Assembly: GCF_026410545.1 (NCBI RefSeq)
Contig: NZ_JAPMIT010000004.1
Span: forward strand, 310,001-374,000
Length of the DNA stretch: 64,000 nt
Origin: Microbacterium sp. STN6
Lineage (GTDB): Bacteria > Actinomycetota > Actinomycetes > Actinomycetales > Microbacteriaceae
Direction of reading: 5' to 3'
In this document: positions 15,513-47,592 of the stretch, in pieces
Layout: every line of letters begins with the position of its first letter
How positions within the stretch are numbered: position 1 is the first letter of the stretch
Notes under the pieces: generated by a model
Told to the model about the DNA's origin: nothing
The model's input: the letters and a program-made list of their open reading frames with translations, nothing else
Database searches by the model: none
Translations under genes and position numbers: made by a program

Positions 15513-15530
15513 CGTTCGACGCATTCCGCG

Positions 15531-15561
15531 GGTGCCGGCCGGGTATCGCCCGGCCGGCACC
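15531..15561 (+). terminator. Intercistronic hairpin after the binding-protein gene
   Basis: GGTGCCGGCCGGG and CCCGGCCGGCACC form a perfect 13-bp stem around TATCG, with no run of T after it. In ABC operons such hairpins between the binding protein and permeases usually protect the upstream mRNA or attenuate, giving excess binding protein. Confidence 0.75.
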
Positions 15562-15599
15562 ATCCGTCATACTCATCGCACGCGAAAGGAGGTCGCGCC

Positions 15600-29105: not shown

Positions 29106-30058
29106 TCACGGCGGTCGCGCTCAGCGCGGCGGTCGATGTGATGTACCTTGTCGACGCGTTCGAGGAGGGCCGCATCCACCGGCCGACCGCGGTGCACCGT
29201 CTGCCTGGAGGCAAGGCGCTGAACGCGGTGCGGGCGGCGGCCACGGTGGGCGCCGACGTGCGCGCGGTGGCCATGCTGGGTGGCGACACCGGCGCATTCA
29301 TCGCGCGTGAACTGGCGGCTGCCGGCATCCGCACGCATGTCGTGCAGGGTGCGATGCCGACCCGCACCTGCGTCACCGTGGCCTCTGCGACGAGTGGACT
29401 GCTGACCGAGATCTACGAGCATCCGACCGAGGTGAGCGCGGCCGAGTGCGAGGCGGCGATCGAGAGCGTGCGCGAGGTGCTGGCGGGCGGCGAAGGGTGG
29501 GTGCTGGTCTCCGGCGGTATGCCCGCGGCGTTCGCCGATGGCGGGCTCGATCGCGTGGTGCGGCTCGCGCACGAGAGCGGGCATCGCATCGCCATCGACA
29601 GCCACGGCCCGGCCCTGGCGACGGCGCTCGACGCGCGGCCCGATGTCGTGAAGGTGAACCGGTCCGAGGCGATGGAGCTCGTGGCTGCGGCCGACGGCTC
29701 CCTCGACCTCGTGGAGGCCGCCGGTGAGGTGCAGCGCCGCACGGGAGGCATCGTCATCATCACGGATGGCGAGCACGGCTCGGTGGCACTCGATTCGCGC
29801 AGTGCCGCCGCTCATGCCGGCCGCGCCGCCGCCTGGCGCGTGCAGCCGAGCGCGCGTCGCGGGCACTACCCCACCGGCAGCGGGGATTCGTTCCTCGGCG
29901 GCCTCGTCGCCGCCCTCGACCACGGTAACGCGCTGCCCGACGCACTGCGGCTCGCGGCGGCGTGCGCGACGGCCAACGCGCTGGCGCCCGGTGCGGCGGT
30001 CTTCGACGCGGACAAGGCGCGCGAGATCGCGGGGGAGCTCGAGGTTACGGCGCTCTGA
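29102..30058 (+). CDS. PfkB-family kinase of the 1-phosphofructokinase/tagatose-6-phosphate kinase branch
   Basis: A 318-residue kinase starting at the ATG overlapping the previous stop; the frame is open upstream but is out-of-frame sequence of the first kinase. Signatures: ALSAAVDVMY, RLPGGKALNAVRAAATVG and the catalytic PTGSGDSFLGGLVAAL. The GGKALN form (in place of GGKGINVA) is slightly divergent. It probably makes a sugar bisphosphate for the class II aldolase at 25032. Its last 14 bp overlap the convergent BadF gene. Confidence 0.85.
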   Translation: MITAVALSAAVDVMYLVDAFEEGRIHRPTAVHRLPGGKALNAVRAAATVGADVRAVAMLGGDTGAFIARELAAAGIRTHVVQGAMPTRTCVTVASATSGLLTEIYEHPTEVSAAECEAAIESVREVLAGGEGWVLVSGGMPAAFADGGLDRVVRLAHESGHRIAIDSHGPALATALDARPDVVKVNRSEAMELVAAADGSLDLVEAAGEVQRRTGGIVIITDGEHGSVALDSRSAAAHAGRAAAWRVQPSARRGHYPTGSGDSFLGGLVAALDHGNALPDALRLAAACATANALAPGAAVFDADKAREIAGELEVTAL

Positions 30059-31040
30059 GCCGCTCCACGTCGGCGACGATGCGATCGAAGACACCCTGGT
30101 CGACCGGCACCCCGCCGCGGACGAGCGCGAGTACCACCGCGCCGACCGCCCCGTCGCGCACGCGGATCGGCGAGCCGCCATCGCCACCTCCGGCACCGCC
30201 CGCGCCCAGCGCCTCGGCGTTCAGCGCCCCGGTGTCCAGCAGCGCGCTCAGCACGCTGCCTCCGATCGTGAGCGGGCCGGTCACCCCCTCCTCCCGCACG
30301 GCGCGGAGCGAGGCGGCGAGCTCAGCGGCGGCGTCACGCAGAATGGATGCTGCGACCGCATCCGCTCGAGAGGCGAACGCGAGCGGGGCGAACCGGGAGA
30401 GCTGCACCGGTCTCAGCGCGTAGAGCGCCTCGATGAGCTGCAGCAGCTCGCGCGGCCTGCCCGTGGCGCGCCCGCCGGTGCGCCCGAGGCCGAGCTCGGC
30501 GAGCAGCAGGTCGGTCAGCGCCGTCGCCGGGCCGAGGCCGTCGAGGTCGGCAACGGCCGCGCGGGCGATGCGCCGGCCGATCCAGAAGCCGCTGCCGGCG
30601 TCGCCGAGAAGCCAGCCGGTGCCGTCGGCTACGCGATCCAGGCGGTGACCCACGATGCGCGCGGCGACCGAGCCGGTGCCAGCGGCCAGCGCGTACCCGT
30701 CGGGCGAGGGCGTGCCGGAGCAGAACATGGCCAGCAGATCCGATTCGACGCTGACCGGCCCGTGGATGCCGACCGCAGCCAGCGACGCGCTGATGCGTTC
30801 GAGCGGGAGTCCGGCGCCGTGTCCTGCCATCGCGAACACGATGCGCGCGAACGGTGGCACGTTCCCGCCGCCGCTCGCCTGAAGCGCCGCCTCGGTGAAA
30901 GAAGCCAGCGCGCCTTCCGTGCCCGCGGAGATGGGATTGCCCGGGCCCGAGACTCCGTAGCCGAGGCAGTGGCCCGCGGCATCCGCTCGCACTGCCCTGG
31001 TGTGAGTGCCGCCCGCGTCGATGGCGAGAATGTGCTGCAC
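30045..31040 (-). CDS. BadF/BadG/BcrA/BcrD-family ATPase, candidate N-acetylglucosamine/MurNAc kinase
   Basis: A 331-residue ASKHA-fold kinase starting at a GTG (31040) behind AAGGGCGG. Phosphate loop ILAIDAGGTHTRAV (4-17), second phosphate motif LAAGTGSVAA, then DRVADGTGWLLGDAGSGFWIGR, typical of the sugar-kinase branch that contains human NAGK and clostridial MurK. MurK phosphorylates MurNAc and GlcNAc at O6. Because murQ and namZ lie in the same window and no MurNAc PTS gene does, a MurK-like role is attractive but inferred. It is divergent from the RpiR-SIS-NgcEFG operon. Confidence 0.82.
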   Translation of the reverse strand: MQHILAIDAGGTHTRAVRADAAGHCLGYGVSGPGNPISAGTEGALASFTEAALQASGGGNVPPFARIVFAMAGHGAGLPLERISASLAAVGIHGPVSVESDLLAMFCSGTPSPDGYALAAGTGSVAARIVGHRLDRVADGTGWLLGDAGSGFWIGRRIARAAVADLDGLGPATALTDLLLAELGLGRTGGRATGRPRELLQLIEALYALRPVQLSRFAPLAFASRADAVAASILRDAAAELAASLRAVREEGVTGPLTIGGSVLSALLDTGALNAEALGAGGAGGGDGGSPIRVRDGAVGAVVLALVRGGVPVDQGVFDRIVADVERLRAP

Positions 31041-31154
31041 GCGACCGCCCTTCGTCCCTGTCGTGGTCGATCGACAGTACCGCGGTGAGCTTCGTAACGC
31101 GCAGGCAACGATTGCGCGAAAGCTCTTGACACCGTGCACCGAATAGATGAGAGT

Positions 31155-31168
31155 GAATTTTGAAATTC
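31155..31168. promoter_or_regulatory. Candidate RpiR operator upstream of the SIS/NgcEFG operon
   Basis: GAATTT-TG-AAATTC is a perfect 6-bp inverted repeat around two bases, 30 bp before the RpiR start and 115 bp from the divergent kinase start. TGAAA/TTTCA-type palindromes are typical RpiR-family sites, so autoregulation and control of both directions is likely. TTGACA occurs 28 bp upstream. Confidence 0.6.
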
Positions 31169-31197
31169 TCCGCCGGAGCTGAAACGGAGTCTCAGAA

Positions 31198-32136
31198 GTG
31201 GCAGTGTCGCCGATTGTGGATGATGGCGCCCCAGCGAGCTGGGTCGCCAACCGCATCCTCACGCACCTGCCCTCCATGTCAGGCACGATGCGCAAGATCG
31301 CGACCGTGCTCATCGAGCACCCGCACGCCCCGCTCGAGATGTCGATCGGCGAGCTGGCGCTGAAGGCCGGTACCTCGCCCGCCACGGTCACGCGCTTCTG
31401 CCGACTGCTCGGCTACTCGGGGTACGTCCCCTTCCGCGTGAGCATCGCCACCGACATGGGGCGGGCCTCGGCGCGAGACACGTGGAAGGCCGACATCGGG
31501 CGGGAGTTCGGGCCGGATGATGCCCCGCGCGACGTGTTGAGCACGCTGCTGAATGCGCACATCCGCTCTCTTCAGGAGACCGCGGCGACCATGGACCTCG
31601 CCGTCATGCAGAACATCTCCATGCGCATCGCCTCCGGCCGGCACGTCGACATCTACGGGGTGGGCGGCAGCTCGACGCTGGCCGAGGAACTGCAGGCGCG
31701 CTTCTACCGCATCGGCATCAACTCGCACCACTGGTCAGAGGTGCACGCGGGGCTCACGAGCGCCGCGATCCAGGGCGACGACTGCGTGGCCATCGGCATC
31801 TCGAACACGGGCATGACCGAAGAGACGATCCAGATGCTGCGCCAGGCTCGCGACGCCGGCGCGCTCGCCGTGGCGATCAGCAACAACCCGAAGTCGGTTC
31901 TGGCCGAGATCGCCGATCTCAGCATCATCACCTCGGTCTACGAACGCTTTCTGCAGCCGGACGATCTCTCGGCCAAGCACGCGCAGCTGCTTGTGCTCGA
32001 CCTGCTGTACCTGCTTGTGGCACAGGAGAACTTCACGCAGACCACGTCGAACCTGGCGGCCTCGGCCGTCGCCGTATCCGGACACAGGCGCGCGCATCGC
32101 GCGCGCATCGTCGTGGCCGCTCAGGAGAAGAAATGA
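31198..32136 (+). CDS. RpiR/MurR-family transcriptional regulator
   Basis: A 312-residue regulator with an N-terminal RpiR helix-turn-helix (residues about 20-95: MSGTMRKIATVLIEHPH, then SPATVTRFCRLLGYSGYVPFR). A C-terminal SIS domain follows (IYGVGGSSTLAEELQARF, then IGISNTGMTEETI) that binds phosphosugars. The start is a GTG with GGAG 9 bases upstream. It overlaps the SIS gene by 4 bp and so regulates an operon of which it is part. Phosphorylated amino sugars are the expected effectors. Confidence 0.9.
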   Translation: MAVSPIVDDGAPASWVANRILTHLPSMSGTMRKIATVLIEHPHAPLEMSIGELALKAGTSPATVTRFCRLLGYSGYVPFRVSIATDMGRASARDTWKADIGREFGPDDAPRDVLSTLLNAHIRSLQETAATMDLAVMQNISMRIASGRHVDIYGVGGSSTLAEELQARFYRIGINSHHWSEVHAGLTSAAIQGDDCVAIGISNTGMTEETIQMLRQARDAGALAVAISNNPKSVLAEIADLSIITSVYERFLQPDDLSAKHAQLLVLDLLYLLVAQENFTQTTSNLAASAVAVSGHRRAHRARIVVAAQEKK

Positions 32137-32903
32137 CAGAGTCCGCTCTTTCCGACCTCACCCGGCGTTACCTGGCCGAGGTGGTGCCGCGTGTGCAGGA
32201 GCTCGCTGCGCAGGCGCAGTCGGGTGCGTTCGATGACGCGATCGACCTCATGGTCGAGGCCATCGACAAGGGTGGAATCATTCAGGCGTTCGGCACCGGG
32301 CACTCCGAGGCGTTCGCCATGGAGATCGCGGGTCGGGCCGGCGGGCTGATTCCCACCAACAAGATCGCGTTGCGCGACGTCGTCGTCTGGGGCAGCAAGA
32401 GCCCCGAGATCCTGGGCGGCTCGGAGCTTGAACGCGACCCAGCGATCGTCGATGAGCTGTTCGCGCTGTCGCCCGTGGGCGAAGACGACGTGTTTCTGAT
32501 CGCCTCGAACTCGGGGGTCAACGGCTCCATCGTCGGCCTTGCGCTGCTCGTCAAGGAGCGGGGCCACAAGCTCATCGCCGTGACGAGCCTTGAGCACACC
32601 AACCGGGTGCAGCCGAAGCACCCCAGTGGCAAGCGTCTCGCCGACGTCGCCGACGTCGTCATCGACAACCTGGCGCCGTTCGGCGATGCGACGCTCGAAC
32701 TGGCCGGGGGCACCCCGGTCGGCGCCGTGTCGTCGATCACCGCCGCCTTCATCGCCCAGCTGCTCACCATCGGCACCGCGGAGCGCATTGCGGAACGCGG
32801 CGTCACCCCACCGCTCTACATCTCGGCGAACATCCCGGGTGGCGACGAGCACAACAGGGCGCTCGAAGAGCTCTACCGCGGAAAGATCACGCGGACGGCA
32901 TGA
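32133..32903 (+). CDS. SIS-domain phosphosugar-binding protein (UPF0309-like isomerase/lyase)
   Basis: A 256-residue single-SIS protein. Phosphosugar-binding segments are IIQAFGTGHSEAFAMEIAGR near residues 49-68 and FLIASNSGVNGSIVGLAL near 122-139. This group is often annotated as a sugar isomerase and is commonly found beside RpiR regulators and amino-sugar importers. The chemistry is not established. It lacks the ASECPPT signature of MurQ, so it is not a second etherase. Confidence 0.8.
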   Translation: MTESALSDLTRRYLAEVVPRVQELAAQAQSGAFDDAIDLMVEAIDKGGIIQAFGTGHSEAFAMEIAGRAGGLIPTNKIALRDVVVWGSKSPEILGGSELERDPAIVDELFALSPVGEDDVFLIASNSGVNGSIVGLALLVKERGHKLIAVTSLEHTNRVQPKHPSGKRLADVADVVIDNLAPFGDATLELAGGTPVGAVSSITAAFIAQLLTIGTAERIAERGVTPPLYISANIPGGDEHNRALEELYRGKITRTA

Positions 32904-33077
32904 GACGCGAGACCTCATGACAACCACTACACGTAACCGGCGCACACGCTACGCACTCTCAGTCAGACAGGAAGCAAGAAAGGCAAGAAAGGCAACAAAC
33001 CTCACGCACCAGATGTCAGGCCGCGACACACCGGTCGCGATCACGGCAATGACGCCACGAACGGAAGGCAGCAACAC

Positions 33078-34472
33078 ATGACAATCCAAGACAAGCCCAT
33101 GGTCCGGCGCGACTTCCTGCGGGGAGCTCTCGTGCTCGGTGTCGGCGTGCCGCTCAGCGCCACGCTCGCGTCGTGCGCCGCCGGCGGAGGTGGCGGCGAC
33201 AACGGAAGCGGGGGCGCCACCGGCAAGAAGTCGGCCAAGAACCCCTTCGGTCTCGCCGACAACTCCACGGTCGACGCGGTCATCTTCAACGGTGGCTACG
33301 GTTACGACTACGTGACCTTCGCGGCGAACATCGTTGAGAAGAACCACAAGGGGGTCAAGGCCAAGGTCTCCCCGTCGACGCAGATCGGCCAGCAGCTGCA
33401 GCCGCGCTTCGTCGGCGGCAACCCGCCCGACCTCATCGACAACTCGGGCGCCGGCGCAATCGGGTTCAACACGATTCTCGACCAGCTCTCGGAGCTCGAC
33501 GACGTTCTCGCGTCGAACAACCTCGAGGGCACGAAGATCTCCGACACCGTGTACCCGCACGTCAAGGATCCCGGCACGTTCAACGGCAAGTTCCTTGCGC
33601 TGAACTACGTGATGACGGTCTACGCCCTCTGGTACTCCGAGAGTCTGTTCCAGGAGAACGGATGGACGCCGCCCAAGACGTGGGACGAGGCGATCGAGCT
33701 CGGCGCCAAGGCGAAGACGAAGGGCAAGTACCTCTTCGTCTGGGGCAAGGAAGCGGCGACCTACTACCAGACCATGGCCATGGACTCGGCCATCAAGGAG
33801 GGTGGCGATGACGTTCTGAACGCTCTGGAGAGCCTCGACCCGAAATGCTGGTCGCACCCGGCGATCCAGGGCGTGTTCAAGGCGCTGGAACAGATCGTGA
33901 AGGCCGGCTACTTCGTGCCCGGCGGCGCGGGAACCCAGTTCACCAAGGCGCAGGCGCAGTGGAGCAACGATCAGCAGGCGATCCTGTACCCCTCGGGCGG
34001 CTGGATCGAGAACGAGATGAAGAAGGCGACGAAGGACGGTTTCAAGATGACCGGCGCTCCCGAGCCGACGGTCACCTCGGGCTCGAAGATGCCGTACGAG
34101 GCGCTGCGAAGCGCCGCCGGTGAGCCATACATCGTTCCGAAGCAGGGCAAGAACGTGGCGGGTGGCAAGGAGATCCTGCGCGCCATGCTGTCGAAGGATG
34201 CGGCCACGAACTTCTCGAAGACGCGTCTGGCGCCGACGATCGTCAAGGGCCTCGTTCCCGACGACGGTTTCGGCTCGACCGCGCTGGTGTCGCAGACGAA
34301 GATGCTGGATGGCGCTGGCGACAACGTCTTCAACTACCAGTTCGTCGACCTCTACGGCCTCAACCAGGACCAGCTGGTCGTGTGGAACTCGTTCCTCTCC
34401 GGGGGAACGGATGCCGCCGGCCTCACCACGGGCCTGCAGCAGATCACGGACAAGGCCGCGGCAAACAAGTGA
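33078..34472 (+). CDS. ngcE: GlcNAc/diacetylchitobiose ABC transporter substrate-binding lipoprotein (NgcE-like)
   Basis: A 464-residue binding protein resembling NgcE. The N-terminus has a twin-arginine-like VRRDFLRGA and then a lipobox ending at Cys33 (LASC). NgcE-like segments include NPFGLADNSTVDAVIFNGGY, RFVGGNPPDLIDNSGAGAIG and LNYVMTVYALWYSESLFQENG. The start ATG at 33078 has GGAAGG upstream. The 174-bp leader after the SIS gene holds no convincing gene. It overlaps the permease gene by 4 bp. Ligand is inferred as GlcNAc or chitobiose, possibly also a MurNAc-containing sugar given the rest of the locus. Confidence 0.87.
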   Translation: MTIQDKPMVRRDFLRGALVLGVGVPLSATLASCAAGGGGGDNGSGGATGKKSAKNPFGLADNSTVDAVIFNGGYGYDYVTFAANIVEKNHKGVKAKVSPSTQIGQQLQPRFVGGNPPDLIDNSGAGAIGFNTILDQLSELDDVLASNNLEGTKISDTVYPHVKDPGTFNGKFLALNYVMTVYALWYSESLFQENGWTPPKTWDEAIELGAKAKTKGKYLFVWGKEAATYYQTMAMDSAIKEGGDDVLNALESLDPKCWSHPAIQGVFKALEQIVKAGYFVPGGAGTQFTKAQAQWSNDQQAILYPSGGWIENEMKKATKDGFKMTGAPEPTVTSGSKMPYEALRSAAGEPYIVPKQGKNVAGGKEILRAMLSKDAATNFSKTRLAPTIVKGLVPDDGFGSTALVSQTKMLDGAGDNVFNYQFVDLYGLNQDQLVVWNSFLSGGTDAAGLTTGLQQITDKAAANK

Positions 34473-35464
34473 CCAGTTCGACCGACACCGTGACGCCGGG
34501 GGGCGCAGTCAAGCGCGCCCCCCGGCGCCACCGGCGCAAGCTGACCTTCGACAAGGTCAGCTTCATGGTGGTGTTCCTCGGAGTCCCCCTGGCGATCTTC
34601 CTGATCTTCGTGATCTCGCCGTTCGTGCAGGCGCTCTACTATTCGATGACGGACTGGAACGGCTTCTCGCCGAGCATGGACTTCGTCGGGCTCAAGAACT
34701 TCGAGAGGCTGCTGCAGGACGACACCTTCATTCGTGCCGTCATCAACTGCATCCTGCTCGGTGTGATCGTGCCGTTCGTCACGATCGCGATCGCCCTCAT
34801 CATCGCGAGCGTCGTCACGGTGGCCGGCCCGAGCAAGGGCACCGTGCGCGGCATCAAGGGTGCCGGCCTGTACCGTGCCGTTTCGTTCTTCCCGTACTGC
34901 ATCCCCGCGATCGTCATCGGCCTCATCTGGGCGCAGGTGTACGACCCCTCCTCCGGCCTGCTGAACGGGTTCCTCACCTCGATCGGGCTGCACCAGTTCG
35001 AGAACTTCCCGTGGCTCGGCAACGTCACGACCGCCATGCCCGCCTCGATGTGGGTGATCATCTGGGGTTTCATCGGCTTCTACACGGTGCTGTTCGTCGC
35101 CGCCATCAAGGGAATCCCCGCCGAGACGTACGAGGCGGTGCGGCTCGACGGAGCCGGCCGGTTCCGCACGGCGATGTCGGTCACGATCCCTCTTATCCGC
35201 GACAGCGTGCAGACCGCATACATCTATCTGGGCATCGCCGCCCTGGATTCCTTCGTCTACATGTCGGCGTTGTTCCCGAACGCGGGCGGCCCGGCGAACA
35301 CCACGCTCGTCATCAGCCAGGAGCTGTTCAACACGGCCTTCCGCAAGGGCCAGTTCGGCTACGCGACGGCCATGGGTGTTGTGCTTGCCGCAGTGACCCT
35401 GCTGTTCGCGGCGATCGTATTCATCGTCGTTCGCCTCAGCCGAGGCCGTGAGGAAGGTCGATGA
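34469..35464 (+). CDS. ngcF: Sugar ABC transporter permease (NgcF-like)
   Basis: A 331-residue CUT1 permease starting at the GTG that overlaps the ngcE stop. After a basic cytoplasmic tail (KRAPRRHRRK) come six membrane segments, and the coupling loop YEAVRLDGAGRFRTAMSVTI near residues 222-241. It overlaps the next permease by 4 bp. As in the first sugar importer of this window, no ATPase is encoded. Confidence 0.88.
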   Translation: MTSSTDTVTPGGAVKRAPRRHRRKLTFDKVSFMVVFLGVPLAIFLIFVISPFVQALYYSMTDWNGFSPSMDFVGLKNFERLLQDDTFIRAVINCILLGVIVPFVTIAIALIIASVVTVAGPSKGTVRGIKGAGLYRAVSFFPYCIPAIVIGLIWAQVYDPSSGLLNGFLTSIGLHQFENFPWLGNVTTAMPASMWVIIWGFIGFYTVLFVAAIKGIPAETYEAVRLDGAGRFRTAMSVTIPLIRDSVQTAYIYLGIAALDSFVYMSALFPNAGGPANTTLVISQELFNTAFRKGQFGYATAMGVVLAAVTLLFAAIVFIVVRLSRGREEGR

Positions 35465-36372
35465 TGACCGTGACCACAAGCCCCGTGACCGATCGCCCGG
35501 CCCAGACCCCTGTGGCGCCCGGCGGCCGGTCGCAGAAGCAGTCCCGAGGCGACGTCGCCGTCGCCGCATCCTCACACACCCTGCTGATCATCTGGCTGGT
35601 CATCGTCGTCGTTCCCCTGGTGTGGGTTCTCATGTCGTCGTTCAAGACGACAGACGAGATCCTCTCCTCGCCATTCGCCCCGCCCAAGAGCTTCCACCTC
35701 GACAACTACGTCAACGCGTGGAACGGCGCCGGTATCGGCAGCTACTTCGTCAACACGCTCATCGTGGTCGGCTGCGCGCTGGTGATCGTCATGATCCTCG
35801 GGGCCATGTGCGCATACGTGCTGGCGCGGTTCAGGTTCTTCGGCGCGCGAGCCATCTATTACCTCATGCTCGCCGGGCTCACGTTCCCGGTGTTTCTCGC
35901 GATCGTTCCGTTGTTCTTCATCCTGCGCAACATCGGGCTGCTGAACACACTGCCGGGCCTCATCCTGACCTACGTGGCCTTCGCGCTGCCGTTCACGGTC
36001 TTCTTCCTGTACTCGTTCTTCCAGACCCTGCCAGATGAGATCTACGAGGCGGCGCAGGTCGACGGTGCGAGCGAGTGGCGCACGTTCTTCCAGGTCATGC
36101 TGCCCATGGCCAGGCCCGGCATGGCATCGGTCGCGATCTTCAACTTCCTCGGCCTCTGGAACCAGTTCCTGCTGCCGGTGGCGTTGAACTCCGATCAGAG
36201 CCACTACGTGCTCACTCAGGGCATGGCGTCGTTCGCATCGCAGGCCGGCTACTCCATCGACTTCGGCGCGCTCTACGCGGCGGTCGTCATCACGGTCGTT
36301 CCCGTGCTCATCGTGTACGTGTTCTTCCAGCGCCAGCTGCAGGGTTCGGTGTCGGCCGGAACCATGAAGTGA
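35461..36372 (+). CDS. ngcG: Sugar ABC transporter permease (NgcG-like)
   Basis: A 303-residue CUT1 permease of MalG type; coupling loop YEAAQVDGASEWRTFFQVML near residues 200-219 and C-terminal FFQRQLQGSVSAGTMK. Two adjacent ATGs (35461 and 35464) are possible starts. The operon RpiR-SIS-ngcEFG ends here, followed 4 bp later by a small hairpin. Confidence 0.88.
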   Translation: MMTVTTSPVTDRPAQTPVAPGGRSQKQSRGDVAVAASSHTLLIIWLVIVVVPLVWVLMSSFKTTDEILSSPFAPPKSFHLDNYVNAWNGAGIGSYFVNTLIVVGCALVIVMILGAMCAYVLARFRFFGARAIYYLMLAGLTFPVFLAIVPLFFILRNIGLLNTLPGLILTYVAFALPFTVFFLYSFFQTLPDEIYEAAQVDGASEWRTFFQVMLPMARPGMASVAIFNFLGLWNQFLLPVALNSDQSHYVLTQGMASFASQAGYSIDFGALYAAVVITVVPVLIVYVFFQRQLQGSVSAGTMK

Positions 36373-39681: not shown

Positions 39682-42627
39682 TCACTCACCCTCGTCGCGA
39701 ACACCCACGTTCGGCCGCGTCGCCCGCTCGAGCAGCTCGAGCACGTGCCGGTACGGGCGCCCGGTGGCGCCCGTCATCCCCAGCTCGCAGGTTCGATTGG
39801 TCGATGCGTATTCGGCGACGTCGCGCGCTGCGATCTCTGCCGCCTCGGCCGCCGTAGCCGACGCGGTGAGCTCGGGGTGCAGCAGGCCGCGGTCCCCGGC
39901 GAAGCCGCAGCAGCCCCACTCCACGGGCACGACCACGTCGTCGCTGATCGTCTCGGCGATGGTCTGCAGGGCGGCCACGCTGCCGAGCTGGGTCGATGAG
40001 CACGTGGGGTGCAGAGCGAGCGAGTCGATGGGGTTCGTGACGGTCAGCCGGTCGAGCAGGTGCTCGACGGCGAAGTCGACGGAGTCGACGAACCGCAGCG
40101 AGGAGAAGCGAGCACGCGTGTCGCCGCCGCCATCGGCCGCCAGCCGCAGCATCGTCACCAGGCCCTCGGTGCAACTCGATGCGTCGCACACGACAAGCAG
40201 GGCGCCGTTGCCGCTCGCCGCCCACAGTCGCTCAAGAACCCGCTCGGTCATGCTGCGGTAGCCATCGAGCATGCCCTTCGACTTCCAGGGGGTGCCGCAG
40301 CACAGGCCGTCGATCCCGTCGGGAATGACGAGCCGCACCCCGGCGCGCTCGCAGAGGGAGAGCAGCGCCGGCATCACGCCCTCGCCGCCCTCGGCCGGCC
40401 CGAACATGGTGCCGATGCAGGCGGGGAAGTAGACAGCGACCGGCGCCACCTGCCCCAAGCCTGCCGCGTCGGCGTCGCCAGAAGCGGGCCCCATCACGGA
40501 TGCGCCACGCGAGCGCGCCAGCACGGATGCGCCACGCGAGCGCGCCACCCGGCTGCGCCGCGCGCCACCGCCCGGTAGCCCCGCCTCATACAGCGGCACG
40601 TTCTCGGCACCCAGCGCCGCGCGTGCCACCCGCGTTGCCGCGGTCACGACCGGCGCGGGCAGCGCCTTCGCCACAGTGAGCGCCGTGCCGATGGCGCGCC
40701 CGGCGGCGTCCCAGTGCTCGGCGGCTGCGGCCCATCCGCTGTTCTGGGCTGACCCGCTCTGCTCGGCCCGCAGCCGCCGCACCAGGTCTCCCGTGTTGAT
40801 GAGCACCGGGCAGGCCACCTGGCACATGCCGTCGACGGCGCACGTGTCAACGCCGTCGTACTGGTAGTCCTGGCGCAGCCGGCCCGCCAGGCCGGTATCG
40901 CCGCGCGCCTCAGCGGCGGCGATCTCGCGGCGGATCACAATGCGCCGCCGCGGCGTCATCGTCAGATCCTTCGAGGGGCACACCGGCTCGCAATAGCCGC
41001 ACTCGACGCAGCGATCCACTTCGGCCTCGACGCTCGGTGCCGTCTTCAGATCGTCGGTGTACGAAGCGCCGTCGGCGGCGACGATGACGCCGGGGTTCAG
41101 CAGCGCACCGGGGTCGATCAGCGTCTTCACCGAGCGGATCACGTCGTACAGCTCCGCGCCGTACTGCCGCTCGACGAAGGGTGCCATCATGCGCCCCGTG
41201 CCGTGTTCGGCCTTCAGCACGCCGCCGGCCTCAAGCACCATGTCGACCATGTCGTCGGTGAACGCGCGGTACCGCCGCAGCATGCTCGCGTCGTCGAACC
41301 GCTCGGCGAGCATGAAGTGAATGTTGCCATCCTTCGCGTGGCCGAAGATCACGCTGTCGCGGTAGCCGTGCTCCGCGAACAGCCCGGTGAGCGAGCGGCA
41401 CGTGGCGAGCAGGGCGGGCACCGGCACCGCGATGTCCTCGAGCAGCGCGTTGCTGCCGCTCGGCCGGCTCGCCGCCACAGCCGTGTACAACCCCTTGCGC
41501 AGGTGCCAGAGCGCGGCCCTTGTCTCGGGTTCGGTCGTGAGTGCGAAGGGCGTGGCCAGTTCGAGGCCACGGGCGACGGATGCCGTCTCCGCACGCGTGC
41601 GCTCAAGCGTCTCGTCGTCTCCCGCCTGCTGCTCGACCAGCAGCGCCGCGTGCTCGTGCACCTGGAGCTGCGCAAGCCATCGGGGCGCACCGGGGTCGGC
41701 TTGCGCGACGCGCAGCGACGCGGCATCCATCAGTTCGATGGTTGCCAGGCCCGTCTCGACCAGTTGCGGCAGCGCGGCCGTGGCTGCAGACAGGCTCGGG
41801 AAGGTGAGCAGCCCGGTCGCGGCGCGCGGCAGGATCGGAACCGTGCGGAAGACGGCGGAGGCCACGAAGCCGAGCGTGCCCTCGGAGCCGACCAGGAGAT
41901 GCGCCAGAATCTGGGCGGGTGCGTCGAAGTCGAGGAACGCGTTGAGGCTGTAGCCCATGGTGTTCTTCATCGAGAAGAGACGCCGAATAGTGGCCACCGA
42001 CGCGGGATCGGCGCGCACGCGGTCGCGCAGATGGGTGAGGCCCGCGTGAATATCGGGCTCGAGGGCGGCGAGGCGCGCATCCGCATCGTGGGCGGAGGTG
42101 TCGATGACGGTGCCGCTCGGCAGCACCACGACCATGGACTCGAGGGTTCGGTAGGTGTTCAGCTCGGTGCCGCACGCCATGCCGGAGGAGTTGTTGGCGA
42201 TGACGCCGCCGATGGTGCACGCGATCTCGCTTGCCGGATCGGGCCCCAGCCGGCGGCCGTGGCGCGCCAGGTGCGCGTTGACCTGCCGAACGGTGATCCC
42301 CGGCTCGACGCGCACCCGCTCGCCGCCGTCGAGGATCTCGATGCCGCGGAAGCGGGAGCGGGTGTCGACGAGGATGCTGTCGGTCAGCGCCTGTCCGCTC
42401 AGCGAGGTGCCGCCGGAGCGGAACGTGAGAGGTCGGTCGAGCCGCGCCGCGGCGGCCATGATGCGCGCTACCTGGTCGGCCGAGGTCGGCGTGACGACGG
42501 CGTCCGGCACGAGCAGGTAGTGCGACGCGTCGTGGGCCATGGCGAGTCGGTCGATCTCGCGGTCGGTGACGGCGTCGGTGCCCGCGGCCTCGGCCAGGCT
42601 CGAACGCAGGGCGCCGGCCGCGCTCAT
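39682..42627 (-). CDS. FAD/4Fe-4S D-lactate dehydrogenase-like flavoprotein (GlcD-GlpC fusion type)
   Basis: A 981-residue membrane-associated type dehydrogenase. Residues about 40-270 form a PCMH FAD-binding domain (TFRSGGTSLSGQALTDSI, ACTIGGVIANNSSGMACG). A FAD-linked oxidase C-terminal domain follows (GHAKDGNIHFMLAE, LKAEHGTGRMMAPFVE), then two 4Fe-4S clusters (CVECGYCEPVCPS, CAVDGMCQVACPV) and CCG-type domains (YFPACIGTMFG, then CCGTPWKSKG and CCGFAGDRG). It overlaps murQ by up to 4 bp, so D-lactate released by MurQ is the likely substrate. A 27-bp tandem duplication (40497-40550) encodes repeated ARSRGASV in a linker. A GTG one codon upstream (42630) is an alternative start. Confidence 0.87.
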   Translation of the reverse strand: MSAAGALRSSLAEAAGTDAVTDREIDRLAMAHDASHYLLVPDAVVTPTSADQVARIMAAAARLDRPLTFRSGGTSLSGQALTDSILVDTRSRFRGIEILDGGERVRVEPGITVRQVNAHLARHGRRLGPDPASEIACTIGGVIANNSSGMACGTELNTYRTLESMVVVLPSGTVIDTSAHDADARLAALEPDIHAGLTHLRDRVRADPASVATIRRLFSMKNTMGYSLNAFLDFDAPAQILAHLLVGSEGTLGFVASAVFRTVPILPRAATGLLTFPSLSAATAALPQLVETGLATIELMDAASLRVAQADPGAPRWLAQLQVHEHAALLVEQQAGDDETLERTRAETASVARGLELATPFALTTEPETRAALWHLRKGLYTAVAASRPSGSNALLEDIAVPVPALLATCRSLTGLFAEHGYRDSVIFGHAKDGNIHFMLAERFDDASMLRRYRAFTDDMVDMVLEAGGVLKAEHGTGRMMAPFVERQYGAELYDVIRSVKTLIDPGALLNPGVIVAADGASYTDDLKTAPSVEAEVDRCVECGYCEPVCPSKDLTMTPRRRIVIRREIAAAEARGDTGLAGRLRQDYQYDGVDTCAVDGMCQVACPVLINTGDLVRRLRAEQSGSAQNSGWAAAAEHWDAAGRAIGTALTVAKALPAPVVTAATRVARAALGAENVPLYEAGLPGGGARRSRVARSRGASVLARSRGASVMGPASGDADAAGLGQVAPVAVYFPACIGTMFGPAEGGEGVMPALLSLCERAGVRLVIPDGIDGLCCGTPWKSKGMLDGYRSMTERVLERLWAASGNGALLVVCDASSCTEGLVTMLRLAADGGGDTRARFSSLRFVDSVDFAVEHLLDRLTVTNPIDSLALHPTCSSTQLGSVAALQTIAETISDDVVVPVEWGCCGFAGDRGLLHPELTASATAAEAAEIAARDVAEYASTNRTCELGMTGATGRPYRHVLELLERATRPNVGVRDEGE

Positions 42628-43574
42628 CACGCCTCCCCGCTGCGCTGCGCCGCCTCGATCGCACGGCGCAGATACCCGCCATGGGCCGCGAGCACGGCGC
42701 GCGCCTCGGCGTAAGGCAGGCCGGTTCTCAGCATCATGATCGCCTCCTTGAGCGAGCCGTCGGCCTCGGCGAGCGCGCGTGCGGCGGGTGCCGCGTCGAC
42801 TTCCGCCACCCGCATCACGGTGGCCTCCGCTCGGGCACGCAGCTTCTCGTTGGTGGCGCGCAGGTCGACCATGGTGTTGCCGTACGTCTTGCCGAGCCGC
42901 ACCATCGTGATGGTGCTGATCATGTTGAGCACGAGCTTCTGGGCGGTGCCGGCCTTCAGGCGCGTGGAACCCGTGATGAACTCGGGCCCGACCTCGACCT
43001 CGATGCGCACCTCGGCCGCCTCACCCACGGGCGAGTGACGGTTGCAGGCGACGCCGACGGTGAAGGCGCCGACCTCGCGGGCGTGCCCGAGGGCAGCGAC
43101 CACGTACGGGGTGCGACCGGACGCCGAGATGCCGACGACAGCATCCGCGTGGCTCAACCGCAGTTCGCTCAGCTGCCGGATCGCCGCGGCGCCGTCGTCT
43201 TCGGCATTCTCGATGGCGGTGCGCAGCGCAGCGTCGCCGCCGGCGATGAGCCCGACGACGAGCGAGGGGTCGGTGCCGAAGGTCGGGGGGCACTCACTCG
43301 CGTCGAGCACGCCGAGGCGGCCGGGAGTGCCGGCGCCCACGTAAATGAGGCGTCCGCCGTGCGCGAGGCGCTCGCTGATGCCGTCGATCGCGGTGGCGAT
43401 GTTCTGGGACTCCCGGGCGACCGCGACGGGCGCCTCGGCGTCCTGCGCGTTCATCGACGCAACGAGCTGCGAGGTCGGGAGAGTGTCGAGATCGCGCAGC
43501 TCGTCGTTGACCGATTCAGTCGACAGCCCGGCCAGCTGCGAGCGCAGCTGCGCCCGATCGTCGCTCTGGCCCAT
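42627..43574 (-). CDS. murQ: N-acetylmuramic acid 6-phosphate etherase
   Basis: Cleaves the lactyl ether of MurNAc-6-phosphate to GlcNAc-6-phosphate plus D-lactate. The 315 residues form a SIS-fold enzyme with the MurQ signature YVGAGTPGRLGVLDASECPP (78-97). Catalytic Glu94 and Glu125 match E. coli Glu83 and Glu114 in spacing. Later motifs are VGISASGRTPYV and TGSTRLKAGTAQKLVLNM. The ATG at 43574 has GGAGAGG upstream. It is divergent from namZ and overlaps the D-lactate dehydrogenase gene. Confidence 0.95.
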   Translation of the reverse strand: MGQSDDRAQLRSQLAGLSTESVNDELRDLDTLPTSQLVASMNAQDAEAPVAVARESQNIATAIDGISERLAHGGRLIYVGAGTPGRLGVLDASECPPTFGTDPSLVVGLIAGGDAALRTAIENAEDDGAAAIRQLSELRLSHADAVVGISASGRTPYVVAALGHAREVGAFTVGVACNRHSPVGEAAEVRIEVEVGPEFITGSTRLKAGTAQKLVLNMISTITMVRLGKTYGNTMVDLRATNEKLRARAEATVMRVAEVDAAPAARALAEADGSLKEAIMMLRTGLPYAEARAVLAAHGGYLRRAIEAAQRSGEA

Positions 43575-43673
43575 CTGGCAACCTCTCCGTTGACCGTGCG
43601 TAGCTGAATGACGGCTTCGCTCACGCCAGTGTAAATGATTGACCAACGCGCGGCCACTGCCTAGGCTCGCAGC

Positions 43674-44909
43674 ATGATCGAGGTGAGAACGGGAGCCGAC
43701 CGCCTTCGCCGCGACCCCTCCCTGCTGCGCGGGCCGGTCGATGCGCTCGGCCTCGTCACCAATGTCACGGGCACCATGCCCGACCTCTCGCGCAGCATCG
43801 ACGCGCTTCGCGCCGCCGGGTTGTCGATCACGGCTCTCTTCGCGCCCGAGCACGGCCTCTGGGGCAGCGCTCAGGCGGGCGCGAGCGAGACGAGCGGCAT
43901 CGACGAGGCGAGCGGGCTGCCCGTGCACGACACGTACGGCGTCGAGGGAGCGGCGCTCGACGCCCTGCTGCGCGACTCGGGCGTGAGCGCGCTGCTCGTC
44001 GACCTGCAGGACATCGGCGTGCGCAGCTACACCTACGTCTGGTCGCTCTTCGACCTCATGGTCTCGGCCGCGCGCGTCGGCCTGCCCGTCACGGTGCTCG
44101 ACCGCCCCAACCCTCTCGCGGGTCTGGGGCGGCGCGGCCCCGGCCTCGACCCCTCGTGCTCAAGCTTCGTCGGCCGCGTATCGATCCCGTTCCTGCACGC
44201 GCTGACCCTCGGCGAGCTCGCCCGGCTGTTCGCCGAGCAGCACGTGCCGGCGCGGGCCGGCCACGAGCTCGAGCTGCGGGTGATCACGGTGCACGGCTGG
44301 CAGCGGGGTGCGGGGGCGGCAGGCAGCATCCGCCCCTGGGTGTCGCCCTCGCCCAACCTGCCCACGCCCGCGAGCGTGCTCGCCTACGCGGGCACGGTGC
44401 TGTTCGAGGGCACCAACGTGTCGGAGGGGCGCGGCACGACGCACCCGTTCGAGCTCATCGGGGCACCATGGGCGGATGCGCGCTTCGCGGCATCCCTTCG
44501 CCAGACGCCGCTGCCCGGCGTGCTCTTTCGCGACGTCGTCTTCGTGCCCACGTTCAGCAAGGGCGCCGGAGAGCGCGTTCGCGGGGTGCAGCTGCACATC
44601 ACTGACGAGCGGGCGTTCGACCCGCTCGCCACGGCGGTCGTGATGCTGGGCGAGCTGGCCCGGCTGTACCCGGGGGAGTTGCGCGTTCTGCCCGCAGCGA
44701 CGCCGGGCGAGAGGCCGTTCATGGATCTGCTGTGGGGCAGCGACGCTCTGCGGCAGAGCCTCGGCGCCGCCGGCGCGGTCGGCGGCGGTGGCGACGCGGG
44801 CGCGGGCGGCGTCGGCGCGCATCCGCTCGACCCGGCCGCCGCGCTCGCCGCGCTGCTCGAGGCGAGCCCCGTCGCCCCCGAGGTGCCCGAGGCGGTGCGG
44901 CTGTATTGA
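43674..44909 (+). CDS. namZ: Exo-beta-N-acetylmuramidase (DUF1343, GH171)
   Basis: A 411-residue DUF1343 protein. Bacillus subtilis NamZ of this family releases MurNAc from the non-reducing end of MurNAc-GlcNAc chains. Family motifs: ALGLVTNVTGTMPDLSRSID, LFAPEHGLWGSAQAG, DTYG, VDLQDIGVRSYTYVWSL, LDRPNPLAG, WVSPSPNLPTPASVLAY and FEGTNVSEGRGTTHPFELIG. The N-terminus starts directly in the domain and has no signal peptide, unlike the secreted Bacillus enzyme, so hydrolysis is predicted in the cytoplasm. A Gly/Ala-rich linker lies near residues 365-385. The stop overlaps the RpiR start. Confidence 0.9.
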   Translation: MIEVRTGADRLRRDPSLLRGPVDALGLVTNVTGTMPDLSRSIDALRAAGLSITALFAPEHGLWGSAQAGASETSGIDEASGLPVHDTYGVEGAALDALLRDSGVSALLVDLQDIGVRSYTYVWSLFDLMVSAARVGLPVTVLDRPNPLAGLGRRGPGLDPSCSSFVGRVSIPFLHALTLGELARLFAEQHVPARAGHELELRVITVHGWQRGAGAAGSIRPWVSPSPNLPTPASVLAYAGTVLFEGTNVSEGRGTTHPFELIGAPWADARFAASLRQTPLPGVLFRDVVFVPTFSKGAGERVRGVQLHITDERAFDPLATAVVMLGELARLYPGELRVLPAATPGERPFMDLLWGSDALRQSLGAAGAVGGGGDAGAGGVGAHPLDPAAALAALLEASPVAPEVPEAVRLY

Positions 44910-45904
44910 GCATCCAGAGCACCATTCAGGCTCGCGCTGACGCGCTGCCGCCCTCGTCGCGGCGCGTCGCCGACGCGATCGTCGCCGACCCGCAACTGGT
45001 CATGGAGAAGACCATCAGCGAGCTGGCCCGGCTGTGCCAAACCTCGGAGACCTCGGTCGTGCGCTTCTGTCGCAGCATGGGGATGGCCGGCTACGCGCAC
45101 CTGCGCATCGCCCTCGCCGCCGAGCTCGGTCGCGAACGGGCCCAACGCGCCGCATCGGGCAGCGTGGCGGGTGACGAGCGCTATGGCTCGGATATCAGCC
45201 ACAACGACGACCTCGCCGACGCCATCGCGAAGGTGGCGTTCTCGCAGCGGCTCAGCATTGAAGAGACGGTAGGCGGCCTCGACGTCGGTGCGCTCGCGCT
45301 CGCCGTCGATGCGCTGGACCGAGCGCGGCGCGTGATCGTCTTCGGCATCGGGGCCAGCGCGCTGCCGGCCCAGGATCTGCAGGCCAAACTGCTGCGCATC
45401 GGCCGCACCGTGTTCACCTTTGCCGGCGCGCACGACGCGATGGCGGTGGCGTCGCTCGCCACGCCCGAGGATGTGGTGGTGGCCTTCTCACACAGCGGCA
45501 CCACGCTCGAACCCGTGGAGCTCGTGCGCCTGGCGCGCTCCACGGGCGCGACCACGCTCGCCGTCACCAACGGGCGGGGCTCGCCCCTGGCATCCGCTGT
45601 CGATATCGCGCTGTTCACGGCGGCGCGTGAGACGCGTTTTCGGGCCGCCGCCATGGCGAGCCGCACCGCGCAGTTCACGCTGGTCGACTGCCTGTTCGTC
45701 GGCGTGGCGCAGCGCCGACACGACGAGACGACCCTCGCGCTGAAGGCCACGCACGAGGCGACCGAGCCACTGCGGCGCGGCGGCACCACCACCGAGCCGG
45801 CGAGGCGCGGCACCGCCACGACCGAGCCGGCGAGGCGCGGCACCACCACGACCGAGCCGGCGAGACGCGGCACCACGGCACCCGAGGAGGAACGACATGG
45901 CTGA
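44906..45904 (+). CDS. RpiR/MurR-family transcriptional regulator with repetitive C-terminal tail
   Basis: A 332-residue regulator: RpiR helix-turn-helix at residues about 10-80 (PPSSRRVADAIVADPQLVM, then TSETSVVRFCRSMGMAGY) and a SIS domain (VIVFGIGASALPAQDLQAKL, then VVAFSHSGTTLEPVEL). The start is a TTG overlapping the namZ stop (TTGA). After the SIS domain, about residues 288-330 are four copies of TTEPARRG, encoded by a 24-bp tandem repeat (45776-45876) and unlikely to be structured. By position it is the counterpart of MurR, which senses MurNAc-6-phosphate. Confidence 0.88.
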   Translation: MSIQSTIQARADALPPSSRRVADAIVADPQLVMEKTISELARLCQTSETSVVRFCRSMGMAGYAHLRIALAAELGRERAQRAASGSVAGDERYGSDISHNDDLADAIAKVAFSQRLSIEETVGGLDVGALALAVDALDRARRVIVFGIGASALPAQDLQAKLLRIGRTVFTFAGAHDAMAVASLATPEDVVVAFSHSGTTLEPVELVRLARSTGATTLAVTNGRGSPLASAVDIALFTAARETRFRAAAMASRTAQFTLVDCLFVGVAQRRHDETTLALKATHEATEPLRRGGTTTEPARRGTATTEPARRGTTTTEPARRGTTAPEEERHG

Positions 45905-46586
45905 GAGGATCCTGGCGATCGGCGCCCACATCGGCGACATGGATCTGGCGGCGGGCCCGTACCTGGCGCAGAACGTGCTCGACGGCGGCGAGAGCATGCT
46001 GCTGGCCCTCACCCCGGGCGAGCGCGGGCACCCGCGGCTGCCGATCGACGAGTACCGGCGGCAGAAGATCGCCGAGGGGGCAGCCCTGGCCGAGGCGATC
46101 GGCGCGAGATTCGAGGTGTTCGACGACGAGTCCGATGGGATGCTGCGCGCCGACGATGCGGTCGCGGGCCGCGTCGCCCGGCTCATCAGGAGCTATCGGC
46201 CGAGCATGGTGCTGGCGCACTGGAAGCGCAGCATCCACACCGACCACGAGAACGCGTCATGGATCGCCGACCGCGCCCGCTACCTCGCCGGGCTGCCCGG
46301 CTGGCAGACCGACACGAGCGAGCGCCACGGCGTCGCGCGGCTGCTGTACACCGAGAACTGGGAGGACGCCGACGGCTTCAGAGCCGACACGATCGCCGCG
46401 ATCTCAGCCGACGCATACGAGCGCTGGCTTGCGGGCATCAGCGGCCAGGCGTTCGCGCGCGGCGAGACGTACGGCTTCCGCTACATCGACTTCTACAGCG
46501 CGCAGCAGATCACGCGCGGCTGCCTGAACGACGTACCGCGGGCGGTCGCGTTCGCCGCGAGCGAGCCCGCTATGGCGAGGCTCTGA
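45897..46586 (+). CDS. PIG-L family deacetylase
   Basis: A 229-residue LmbE/PIG-L protein. The first metal motif appears as GAHIGDMD (His10, Asp13), a variant of AHPDD, and the second as HTDHENAS. These enzymes remove N-acetyl groups from GlcNAc moieties. Placement in the namZ operon suggests deacetylation of an amino sugar or muropeptide sugar, or of a GlcNAc conjugate. It overlaps the repetitive end of the RpiR gene by 8 bp. Confidence 0.82.
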   Translation: MAERILAIGAHIGDMDLAAGPYLAQNVLDGGESMLLALTPGERGHPRLPIDEYRRQKIAEGAALAEAIGARFEVFDDESDGMLRADDAVAGRVARLIRSYRPSMVLAHWKRSIHTDHENASWIADRARYLAGLPGWQTDTSERHGVARLLYTENWEDADGFRADTIAAISADAYERWLAGISGQAFARGETYGFRYIDFYSAQQITRGCLNDVPRAVAFAASEPAMARL

Positions 46587-46629
46587 GAGCCGTCGAGAAG
46601 AGCCCGGAGCAGTGCGAGGAGGCACTCAC

Positions 46630-47592
46630 ATGCAAGAGAACTGGCAGCTGCGGCCGTTTCAGCCGCACGACCTCGGGCAGCTCGTTGCGGGCCTCGCGTT
46701 GGCAGCGCCGACGGATGCTGTCGGCGTCGACCGTTTCGCCGAGAACGTGCTGCTCGACGTCAACTTTCAGCCCGGCGGGCTCATGGTGGCCGTCGCAGGC
46801 GGCCGAGTCGTCGGCGCCCTGTATGCCGTCGTCTCCCGCGGTGCCGCCACGCCGATCCCTGCAGACGGCGGCTGGATCAGCTTCTTCTACGTGCACCCCG
46901 AGTGGCAGGGCCGCGGCATCGGCTCGGCACTTCTCGAGGCGGCGCTCGCCTGGCTTGCCGAGCGCGGCGCCACCTGGGCGAACTTCTCCGGGTACGCCCC
47001 GGCGTACTTCCTGCCCGGCCTCGACGAGCAGCGGTATCCGCGGGCGATGCGGGTGCTGACGCGAGCCGGCTTCGAGGTGCTGTACACCGCATCCGCCATG
47101 GATCTCAGCATCGCCGCCTACCGGATGCCGGACGAGGTGCGTGAGCTGATCAGCGCGCGCGAGGCCGAGGGGTATTCGTTCGCGCCGGCCGGGTACGGCG
47201 ACCTGCCGGAGGCGATCGCCTTCGCGGCCGAGCGGCTGGCGCCCGACTGGGGCCAGGTCATGCGCGAGTCGGTTCTGCATCAGGGGCACCCCGAACGCGT
47301 GCTGCTCGCCCGCGACGCGGGGGGCGCCGTGGTCGGCTTCGCCACCTACGGCTCGTACGGCGGGCTCATCGAGCGGTTCGGGCCGTTCGGCGTCGACGAG
47401 GGTCAGCGCGGGCGCAGCCTCGGCAAGATCCTGCTGCATCGCACGATGGCGCAGATGCGCAGCGAGGGCGCGCACAGCGCCTGGTTCCTGTGGACCGACG
47501 AGCAGAGCCCCGCCGGCTGGCTCTACCGTCAGGCGGGCTACACGACGACGCGCACGTTCCACGTCATGCAGCGCTCGCTCTCGACGCGCTGA
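46630..47592 (+). CDS. Double-domain GNAT N-acetyltransferase
   Basis: A 320-residue protein with two GNAT domains. The first carries the acetyl-CoA loop VHPEWQGRGIGSALLEAAL near residues 90-108; the second has VDEGQRGRSLGKILLHRTM near 258-276. The ATG at 46630 is preferred because GAGGAGG lies seven bases before it. It is last in the namZ-RpiR-PIG-L unit. Deacetylase and acetyltransferase in the same unit hint at cycling of an amino group on an imported sugar, which is inference only. Confidence 0.83.
   Translation: MQENWQLRPFQPHDLGQLVAGLALAAPTDAVGVDRFAENVLLDVNFQPGGLMVAVAGGRVVGALYAVVSRGAATPIPADGGWISFFYVHPEWQGRGIGSALLEAALAWLAERGATWANFSGYAPAYFLPGLDEQRYPRAMRVLTRAGFEVLYTASAMDLSIAAYRMPDEVRELISAREAEGYSFAPAGYGDLPEAIAFAAERLAPDWGQVMRESVLHQGHPERVLLARDAGGAVVGFATYGSYGGLIERFGPFGVDEGQRGRSLGKILLHRTMAQMRSEGAHSAWFLWTDEQSPAGWLYRQAGYTTTRTFHVMQRSLSTR

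Follow-up and report, generated by a model that had tools for sequence, protein, structure and literature searches.

The locus studied here raises the question of how muramic acid is imported and metabolised in actinobacteria that lack the phosphotransferase system (PTS) protein MurP, for which candidate genes can now be named. We analysed a 64,000-nt window (G000:C4:310001-374000; G+C 68.8%) of Microbacterium sp. STN6, whose genome comprises 3.15 Mb in 5 contigs. In this window, namZ, an rpiR-type gene, a PIG-L-fold gene and a GNAT gene follow one another on the plus strand with overlaps or short gaps between them, and this unit diverges across a 99-base gap from murQ and a gene for a probable D-lactate dehydrogenase (hereafter LDH) (Table 1). 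We consider it likely that these genes belong to a catabolic, PTS-independent module for the salvage of N-acetylmuramic acid (MurNAc), and the module most likely has its own D-lactate-oxidising step. Gene identity, copy number and conserved linkage are established here.

Table 1. Features of the window that bear on MurNAc salvage (GlcNAc, N-acetylglucosamine; FAD, flavin adenine dinucleotide; -6-P, 6-phosphate)
Feature	Position	Strand	Basis
LDH: FAD/Fe-S 2-hydroxyacid dehydrogenase, probably D-lactate dehydrogenase, 982 aa	39682-42630	-	domains, best PDB relative, murQ linkage
murQ, MurNAc-6-P etherase	42627-43574, start ATG 43574	-	TIGR00274 over cut-off
Divergent murQ/namZ intergenic region, presumed promoter-operator	43575-43673, 99 bases
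namZ, exo-beta-N-acetylmuramidase	43674-44909	+	NamZ_N and NamZ_C
RpiR/MurR-type regulator	44903-45904, start uncertain	+	HTH_6 and SIS
PIG-L-fold protein, namZ-linked branch, AHIGDMD replacing AHPDDxE	45897-46586	+	PF02585, motif survey, model
Tandem GNAT, GlmA-like glucosamine N-acetyltransferase candidate	46612-47592	+	domains, profile search, fold match
BadF-family sugar kinase, candidate GlcNAc (possibly MurNAc) kinase	30045-31040	-	PF01869, tree
NgcE-type ABC importer: binding protein 33078, permeases 34382 and 35461	33078-36372	+	TIGR03851, Pfam
nagA, GlcNAc-6-phosphate deacetylase	20738-21910	-	TIGR00221, 261.4 bits (cut-off 225.65)
nagB, glucosamine-6-phosphate deaminase	19915-20700	+	NF001684, 390.8 bits (cut-off 326)

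Gene identity and the proposed route

MurQ scored 353.1 bits against the NCBIfam etherase equivalog TIGR00274 (cut-off 302), and its alignment retains, judged by eye, two conserved Glu positions, which we take to be the catalytic ones. NamZ exceeded the Pfam cut-offs of both NamZ_N (198.4 over 26.9 bits) and NamZ_C (141.8 over 25 bits), and PEHG and other columns were invariant across the seven NamZ members of the family, that of the window included. Because no signal peptide was apparent by eye, NamZ is expected to be cytoplasmic. The rpiR reading frame opens with GTA at 44903. All frames of the unit are intact and tightly overlapping, and a search of the 99-base gap for an inverted repeat as operator candidate found none. 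The arrangement described in the original prediction was thus recovered with all its genes in the families named, and nagA and nagB exceeded their NCBIfam cut-offs as well. The span that it gave, 42627-47592, covers MurQ to GNAT and leaves outside the dehydrogenase of its title.

The genome contains a single NamZ, a single MurQ above the cut-off and two BadF proteins above the cut-off, and a search of it for AnmK found none. Seven GH3 matches were found, one of them in the window at 17.5-18.4 kb with 200 bits, slightly below the beta-N-acetylhexosaminidase cut-off of 207. When we looked for a MurP-type enzyme IIC (EIIC), one PF02378 gene was found genome-wide, other EIIC families not being searched. 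Since ptsI-, mtlF- and mtlD-like frames (translations read by eye) sit with this gene, it was assigned to mannitol. The PTS-independent reading is supported by the identity of MurQ and NamZ, the single murQ and the lack of any PF02378 EIIC other than the mannitol-like one. Within the PF02378 search, the predicted route without MurP is supported, and a second murQ beside a MurP-type PTS gene, which had been named as evidence to the contrary, was not found.

In the route that we propose, a MurNAc-containing saccharide, probably MurNAc-GlcNAc, would enter the cell via an ABC importer, and NamZ would release MurNAc in the cytoplasm. An ATP-dependent kinase would convert MurNAc to MurNAc-6-P, from which MurQ would produce D-lactate and GlcNAc-6-P. 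Through NagA and NagB, fructose-6-P would then reach glycolysis, and LDH would oxidise D-lactate to pyruvate. The GlmA-like GNAT would re-acetylate de-N-acetylated amino sugars, making them usable by the route, and the PIG-L protein may act on the same sugars, in a step yielding or needing a free amine. The RpiR protein would be the regulator of the module.

Linkage of murQ with LDH and namZ

murQ ends in a 4-base overlap with the GTG start of the LDH gene. The LDH protein has the FAD/Fe-S architecture (FAD_binding_4, FAD-oxidase_C, Fer4 and CCG domains), and its best solved relative is the mitochondrial D-lactate dehydrogenase (residues 241-516, E 8.8e-34). We surveyed 299 genomes of the family, our own included, for MurQ at E ≤ 1e-60 and LDH at E ≤ 1e-100. 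MurQ was present in 61 and LDH in 66 genomes; both were found in 36, MurQ alone in 25 and LDH alone in 30 (odds ratio 10). The two genes lay within 10 kb of each other in 18 of the 36 genomes, from 10 of 19 genera (17 of 35 genomes and 9 of 18 genera when our own is excluded), and these 18 pairs include kin, namely five from g50, three from g79, two from g7 and two from g3.

The gene orders around the pair are unlike each other. Five g50 genomes have AnmK-MurQ-NagB-LDH, two g79 genomes have MurQ-SBP (solute-binding protein)-MalF-MalG-BadF-LDH, and G014 has AnmK-sodium symporter-BadF-MurQ-NagB-NagA-LDH. In g7, g3, g49, g53, g55 and one g79 genome, LDH flanks on one side an Opp-type set consisting of SBP5, two permeases, MurQ, AnmK, a PF00144 protein and an OppDF-type ATPase, to which some genomes add a GNAT or a dipeptide epimerase-like protein of the enolase superfamily. 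Because LDH is re-used beside murQ in such unlike orders, which is the best evidence for its role, we suggest that it disposes of the D-lactate made by MurQ and is probably a D-lactate dehydrogenase acting on this product. The tie across the family also bears out the predicted membership of a D-lactate-dehydrogenase-like gene.

Two side observations concern the same genes. The Opp-type set, with OppBC as its permeases and LDH at its side, is widespread in the family (L200, L203, L205-L208, L210, L211). In an Alkalihalobacillus locus, a FAD-oxidase relative of LDH with about 24% identity (L089:15276-16673) lies near namZ, rpiR and BadF, suggesting that the lactate link may extend to Bacillota.

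NamZ is scarce in the family, with 7 of the 299 genomes encoding it, our own included. The predicted linkage of these genes was found to be conserved in relatives. In G017, G192 and G006, rpiR-namZ is divergent from murQ-SBP-MalF-MalG and is accompanied by a PF00144 hydrolase, and the G006 cluster additionally has a BadF kinase. G098, a genome 66% complete in about 290 contigs, shows contiguously nagA-nagB and then PF00144-rpiR-namZ divergent from murQ-SBP-MalF-MalG-LDH-BadF, so that LDH and BadF are included. In G031, genes for BadF, MurQ and an NlpC/P60 peptidase face namZ, and on a short contig of G257 namZ occurs with RpiR- and SBP-like frames. The relatives G098, G014 and G239 offer a contiguous full set.

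Kinase, importer and the completeness of the module

Several observations weigh against the module as drawn, and the first of them concern its kinase. The original prediction had given the phosphorylation of MurNAc to the BadF protein encoded at 30045. Its family stands (PF01869, 60.3 over 31.5 bits), its score against the NCBIfam NagK equivalog falls far short of the cut-off (83 against 370 bits), and the assignment to MurNAc is weakened by its surroundings and its position in the tree. The gene sits 11 kb from murQ and adjoins an RpiR gene, a gene for a PRK02947-subfamily SIS protein and the NgcE-type importer, whose binding protein scored 601 bits against TIGR03851 (cut-off 399.65), so that, going by the gene names, 30045-36372 is a cluster for GlcNAc/chitobiose. 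A tree was made of 23 BadF proteins (27 rows, minus the duplicate or overlapping L153, L011, L006, L135 and L195, plus the second own copy); in it the protein lies outside an actinobacterial clade of 8 rows formed by MurQ-cluster BadF proteins (98/96) and groups weakly with Actinoplanes L054 and the second own BadF (58/98). The positions of the MurK lactyl site (T94, S133-P134-L135; PMC10465942) carry mixed residues that do not separate the BadF rows.

It is quite possible, if somewhat short of an even chance, that the route works with another MurNAc kinase, either the ROK protein at 18909-19922, which precedes nagB, or an unrecognised kinase, and that the BadF protein serves GlcNAc imported by NgcEFG. 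Two points speak for BadF: the kinases that adjoin murQ in relatives are BadF kinases, and MurK of Clostridium acetobutylicum acts on both MurNAc and GlcNAc (PMC5790795). We regard the protein at 30045 as a candidate GlcNAc kinase that may also take MurNAc, and the NgcE-type importer beside it as a possible but unproven amino-sugar route. The PRK02947 SIS protein of this cluster may resemble the Streptomyces GlcNAc-6-P dehydratase NagS (PMC12680351). A second amino-sugar cluster was observed at 14139-20700, with an ABC importer, the GH3 beta-N-acetylhexosaminidase-like gene, the ROK kinase gene and nagB in a row.

Second, the substrate of LDH can be questioned. The protein exceeds no NCBIfam equivalog cut-off (GlcD, 188 of 568 bits; YdiJ, 178 of 1350), the models matched below cut-off include those of glycolate oxidase and 2-hydroxyglutarate dehydrogenase, and enzymes of both kinds are among its solved relatives. 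Moreover, 18 of the 36 genomes do not have LDH within 10 kb of murQ, and LDH occurs in the 30 genomes without MurQ at the threshold. A main role on another 2-hydroxyacid (glycolate, D-2-hydroxyglutarate), with the adjacency to murQ incidental, would fit these points; we consider it unlikely, as the nearness of LDH to murQ recurs across 10 of 19 genera and through varied gene orders.

Third, no importer adjoins murQ or namZ in our genome, whereas G017, G192, G006 and G098 have one beside murQ, and the sole sampled congener, G008, has no NamZ, MurQ or LDH at the thresholds used. The unit could accordingly be read as an incomplete remnant that has lost the importer and kinase of its relatives and no longer supports growth on MurNAc. 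This, too, appears improbable to us: the frames are all intact with tight overlaps, the PIG-L and GNAT genes are retained, and two amino-sugar-type ABC importers lie within the window. Finally, the PIG-L protein, which we treat below with its GNAT partner, departs from the canonical motif: the usual HPDD Asp is replaced by Gly or Ser in all seven namZ-linked bacterial PIG-L proteins.

The GNAT and PIG-L pair

The GNAT protein consists of two acetyltransferase stretches (Pfam). Its structural model (pLDDT, the predicted local distance difference test, 87) has its best fold match in the glucosamine N-acetyltransferase of C. acetobutylicum (Z 29.7 over 299 residues, 2.6 Å), with 15% identity, and the best-scoring row of any other kind of enzyme follows five units lower at Z 24.4. 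The C. acetobutylicum glucosamine/glucosaminide N-acetyltransferase presumably carries the name GlmA. A profile search matched glucosamine N-acetyltransferase at E 2.1e-29, and this enzyme was not among the matches listed for a single-sequence search. On the basis of its modelled fold, the window GNAT is a candidate GlmA-like glucosamine N-acetyltransferase. Enzymes of such type acetylate glucosamine residues in peptidoglycan fragments (PMC4680927).

The PIG-L protein matched PF02585 with 62.3 over 28.2 bits, and its model (pLDDT 88) matched the 22 top rows, all of PIG-L-type title or of that fold, with Z 20.4-27.6. It is about equidistant from GalB, a 4-oxalomesaconate hydratase (Z 27.6), LnmX (27.2), deacetylases (26.8) and BshB/chitobiose deacetylases (26.2). 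The 38 PIG-L rows that we compared fall into three motif groups: HPDDx[ED], as in the canonical deacetylases (16 rows), the GalB-like H[SA][AG]DFVW (14 rows) and a namZ-linked group with its own Hx[GS]D[MA][DE] (8 rows, 7 distinct proteins). The HPDD Asp missing from the last group is, we assume, the general base, as in MshB. The window protein does not have the GalB-type motif either, since its residues after the Asp differ and the fold alone is common to both. Because the namZ-linked branch lacks the HPDD aspartate, the label "deacetylase" in the original prediction is unsafe and the family alone is retained; the protein may act by deacylation through another route or by hydration. A second PIG-L-fold gene, at 7649-8377 (+) in a separate cluster, was observed to carry AHPGDFVW and is of the GalB type.

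We then compared 90 namZ loci, comprising 6 from the family, 80 from named genomes and 4 plasmid-collection records; the 80 are the best matches listed to the window NamZ and so a non-random set, in which short contigs hide neighbours. Besides the window, 6 bacterial loci, spread over four phyla, carry the PIG-L branch, and all 6 have the tandem GNAT: Kribbella rubisoli (L020), a Spirochaetales metagenome-assembled genome (MAG; L047), two Chloroflexota MAGs (L075, L094), a Bacillota MAG (L097) and a Paenibacillus guangzhouensis plasmid record (L100). The haloarchaeal L101 was excluded from this count, its motif being canonical. GNAT without PIG-L occurred in 4 of 83 other namZ loci at the score used; weak matches in L021 and L088 fell below it and are uncounted. 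In these loci the namZ-linked PIG-L branch was always accompanied by GNAT (7 of 7, window included), and GNAT can stand alone. This pattern suggests that the amine which GNAT acetylates is one that PIG-L sets free or requires in free form.

Two of these loci show long runs. L047 has binding protein, two permeases, amidohydrolase, MurQ, BadF, GNAT, PIG-L and NamZ in a single run, and L100 has rpiR-murQ-SBP-two permeases-anmK-GNAT-PIG-L-namZ-BadF, with nagA-nagB-rpiR about 7 kb further. The amidohydrolase within the former (Amidohydro_3, L047:5019-6572) might cut the peptide side. The latter is a 44.7-kb plasmid record (L100/L134, NZ_CP045294.1) in which genes for phage tail and baseplate stand next to this full MurNAc operon.

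A PIG-L match at E ≤ 1e-20 was present in 43 of 396 Actinomycetota genomes, and among 30 fetched Actinomycetota PIG-L loci only that of the window has NamZ or GNAT within about 1.5 kb. Among plasmid records, NamZ was present in 3 of 3 with a GNAT match and in 10 of 12 with a PIG-L match. Nine of these ten are haloarchaeal, with PIG-L and NamZ about 15-18 kb apart in six and further apart in three. In the sole haloarchaeal region examined, that of Halorussus limi, nagZ, namZ, anmK, GNAT, an Opp-type importer and a PIG-L with the canonical motif lie within about 20 kb. Haloarchaea are not known to have murein; this region also encodes a peptidoglycan-recognition protein, and the haloarchaea with such gene sets seem equipped to eat bacterial wall. 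The pair accompanies NamZ across phyla, and related gene sets occur even on haloarchaeal replicons. That GNAT and PIG-L are chance neighbours without a MurNAc role, for example enzymes of thiol metabolism, is very unlikely in our view. It would fit their weak, sub-cut-off resemblance to mycothiol and bacillithiol enzymes and the lack of matches to GNAT and PIG-L near namZ in the six other family NamZ genomes. Against it stand their recurrence with namZ in the six further loci and the plasmid records, even if nine of the ten with PIG-L are haloarchaeal at distances of at least 15 kb and the single motif examined among those nine is canonical.

What the PIG-L protein does is the part most deserving of follow-up. 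The idea that it is a new etherase replacing MurQ was rejected, because MurQ was above the cut-off in 8 of 8 genomes tested; the L020, L075 and L094 genomes hold it away from the GNAT/PIG-L cassette. None of the 6 PIG-L loci had PF00144 or NagZ, against 20 with PF00144 (Fisher p 0.02) and 22 with NagZ (Fisher p 0.005) among the 34 remaining namZ loci that carry salvage genes. These counts, from few and related loci, are only a hint that PIG-L stands in for the PF00144 hydrolase or NagZ. A rather unlikely proposal is that PIG-L is a new amino-sugar enzyme, which either removes N-glycolyl or another non-acetyl group from scavenged muramic acid without the usual Asp, so that GNAT re-acetylates the sugar, or acts as a GalB-like hydratase rescuing dehydrated by-products of MurQ. 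If true, acyl editing would let the walls of N-glycolylating bacteria enter the MurQ route, and with either activity the namZ, GNAT and PIG-L cassette, which Actinomycetota, Bacillota, Chloroflexota and Spirochaetota have in common, would add to peptidoglycan salvage an arm not described before. A NamH-like Rieske hydroxylase for N-glycolylation found no support in our genome among five PF00355 matches, one of which was read, and NamH might escape PF00355. The one read, L152 (506 aa, the only match of suitable size), appears by eye to be an FAD oxidoreductase whose C-terminal part is of Rieske type; the remaining four frames have 380, 298, 191 and 363 aa.

Comparison with known systems

In Bacillus subtilis, the cluster has the order murQ-murR-murP-amiE-nagZ-namZ, and MurNAc enters via the PTS protein MurP. 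The window resembles this cluster in having NamZ, MurQ and an RpiR/MurR regulator together and differs from it in that MurP, AmiE and NagZ are missing from the unit. Several actinobacterial loci among the best matches listed show the order nagZ-namZ-PF00144-rpiR-murQ. Like the window, C. acetobutylicum has a kinase of the BadF type, which there acts on MurNAc and GlcNAc, together with a tandem GNAT whose fold is the same; the low GNAT identity sets the two apart, and the available text on that organism does not describe a PIG-L partner or LDH (PMC5790795, PMC4680927).

PTS-independent use of MurNAc is known from Tannerella forsythia, which employs MurT, a member of the sodium symporter superfamily, with MurK and MurQ (PMC5790795). 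The window is like its murT-murK-murQ operon in combining a BadF/ASKHA-type kinase with MurQ independently of a PTS (PMC5790795, PMC10465942), and NamZ enzymes also occur in T. forsythia (reference within PMC10465942). In the family genome G014, symporter, BadF and MurQ even follow one another directly. The window differs from T. forsythia in that no MurT-like symporter adjoins murQ and that LDH, GNAT, PIG-L and RpiR are present in addition.

Among Actinomycetota, a preprint describes AnmK, MurK and MurQ in Mycobacterium smegmatis, where MurQ is needed for the rescue of glmS depletion by MurNAc, and reports no MurP homologue in the Mycobacteriales tested (PMC13041923); PMC6572805 is further related work on this topic. 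The 2026 preprint asks for the transporters and enzymes involved and brings up the possibility that N-acetyl takes the place of N-glycolyl (PMC13041923). The original prediction knew of no described actinobacterial pathway with exactly the set seen here, and neither the murQ-LDH unit nor the namZ-GNAT-PIG-L cassette, including the combination of DUF1343, PIG-L and GNAT, was found in the literature searched, which misses most subscription papers; the PTS-independent route as such had been published for T. forsythia (PMC5790795) and in the M. smegmatis preprint (PMC13041923).

Corynebacterium glutamicum equipped with murP-murQ of Escherichia coli built up lactate on MurNAc, and its authors suggested more dld (PMC6165865). 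The window is like this engineered strain in that D-lactate released by MurQ would need oxidation by a quinone-dependent D-lactate dehydrogenase, and unlike it in that the strain is PTS-based and its dld is not linked to murQ (PMC6165865). A murQ-LDH unit would dispose of the D-lactate half of the substrate and thus bears on that build-up of lactate (PMC6165865). Taken together, PTS-independent MurNAc salvage is known, and what is new here is a variant with a murQ-LDH unit and a GNAT/PIG-L pair.

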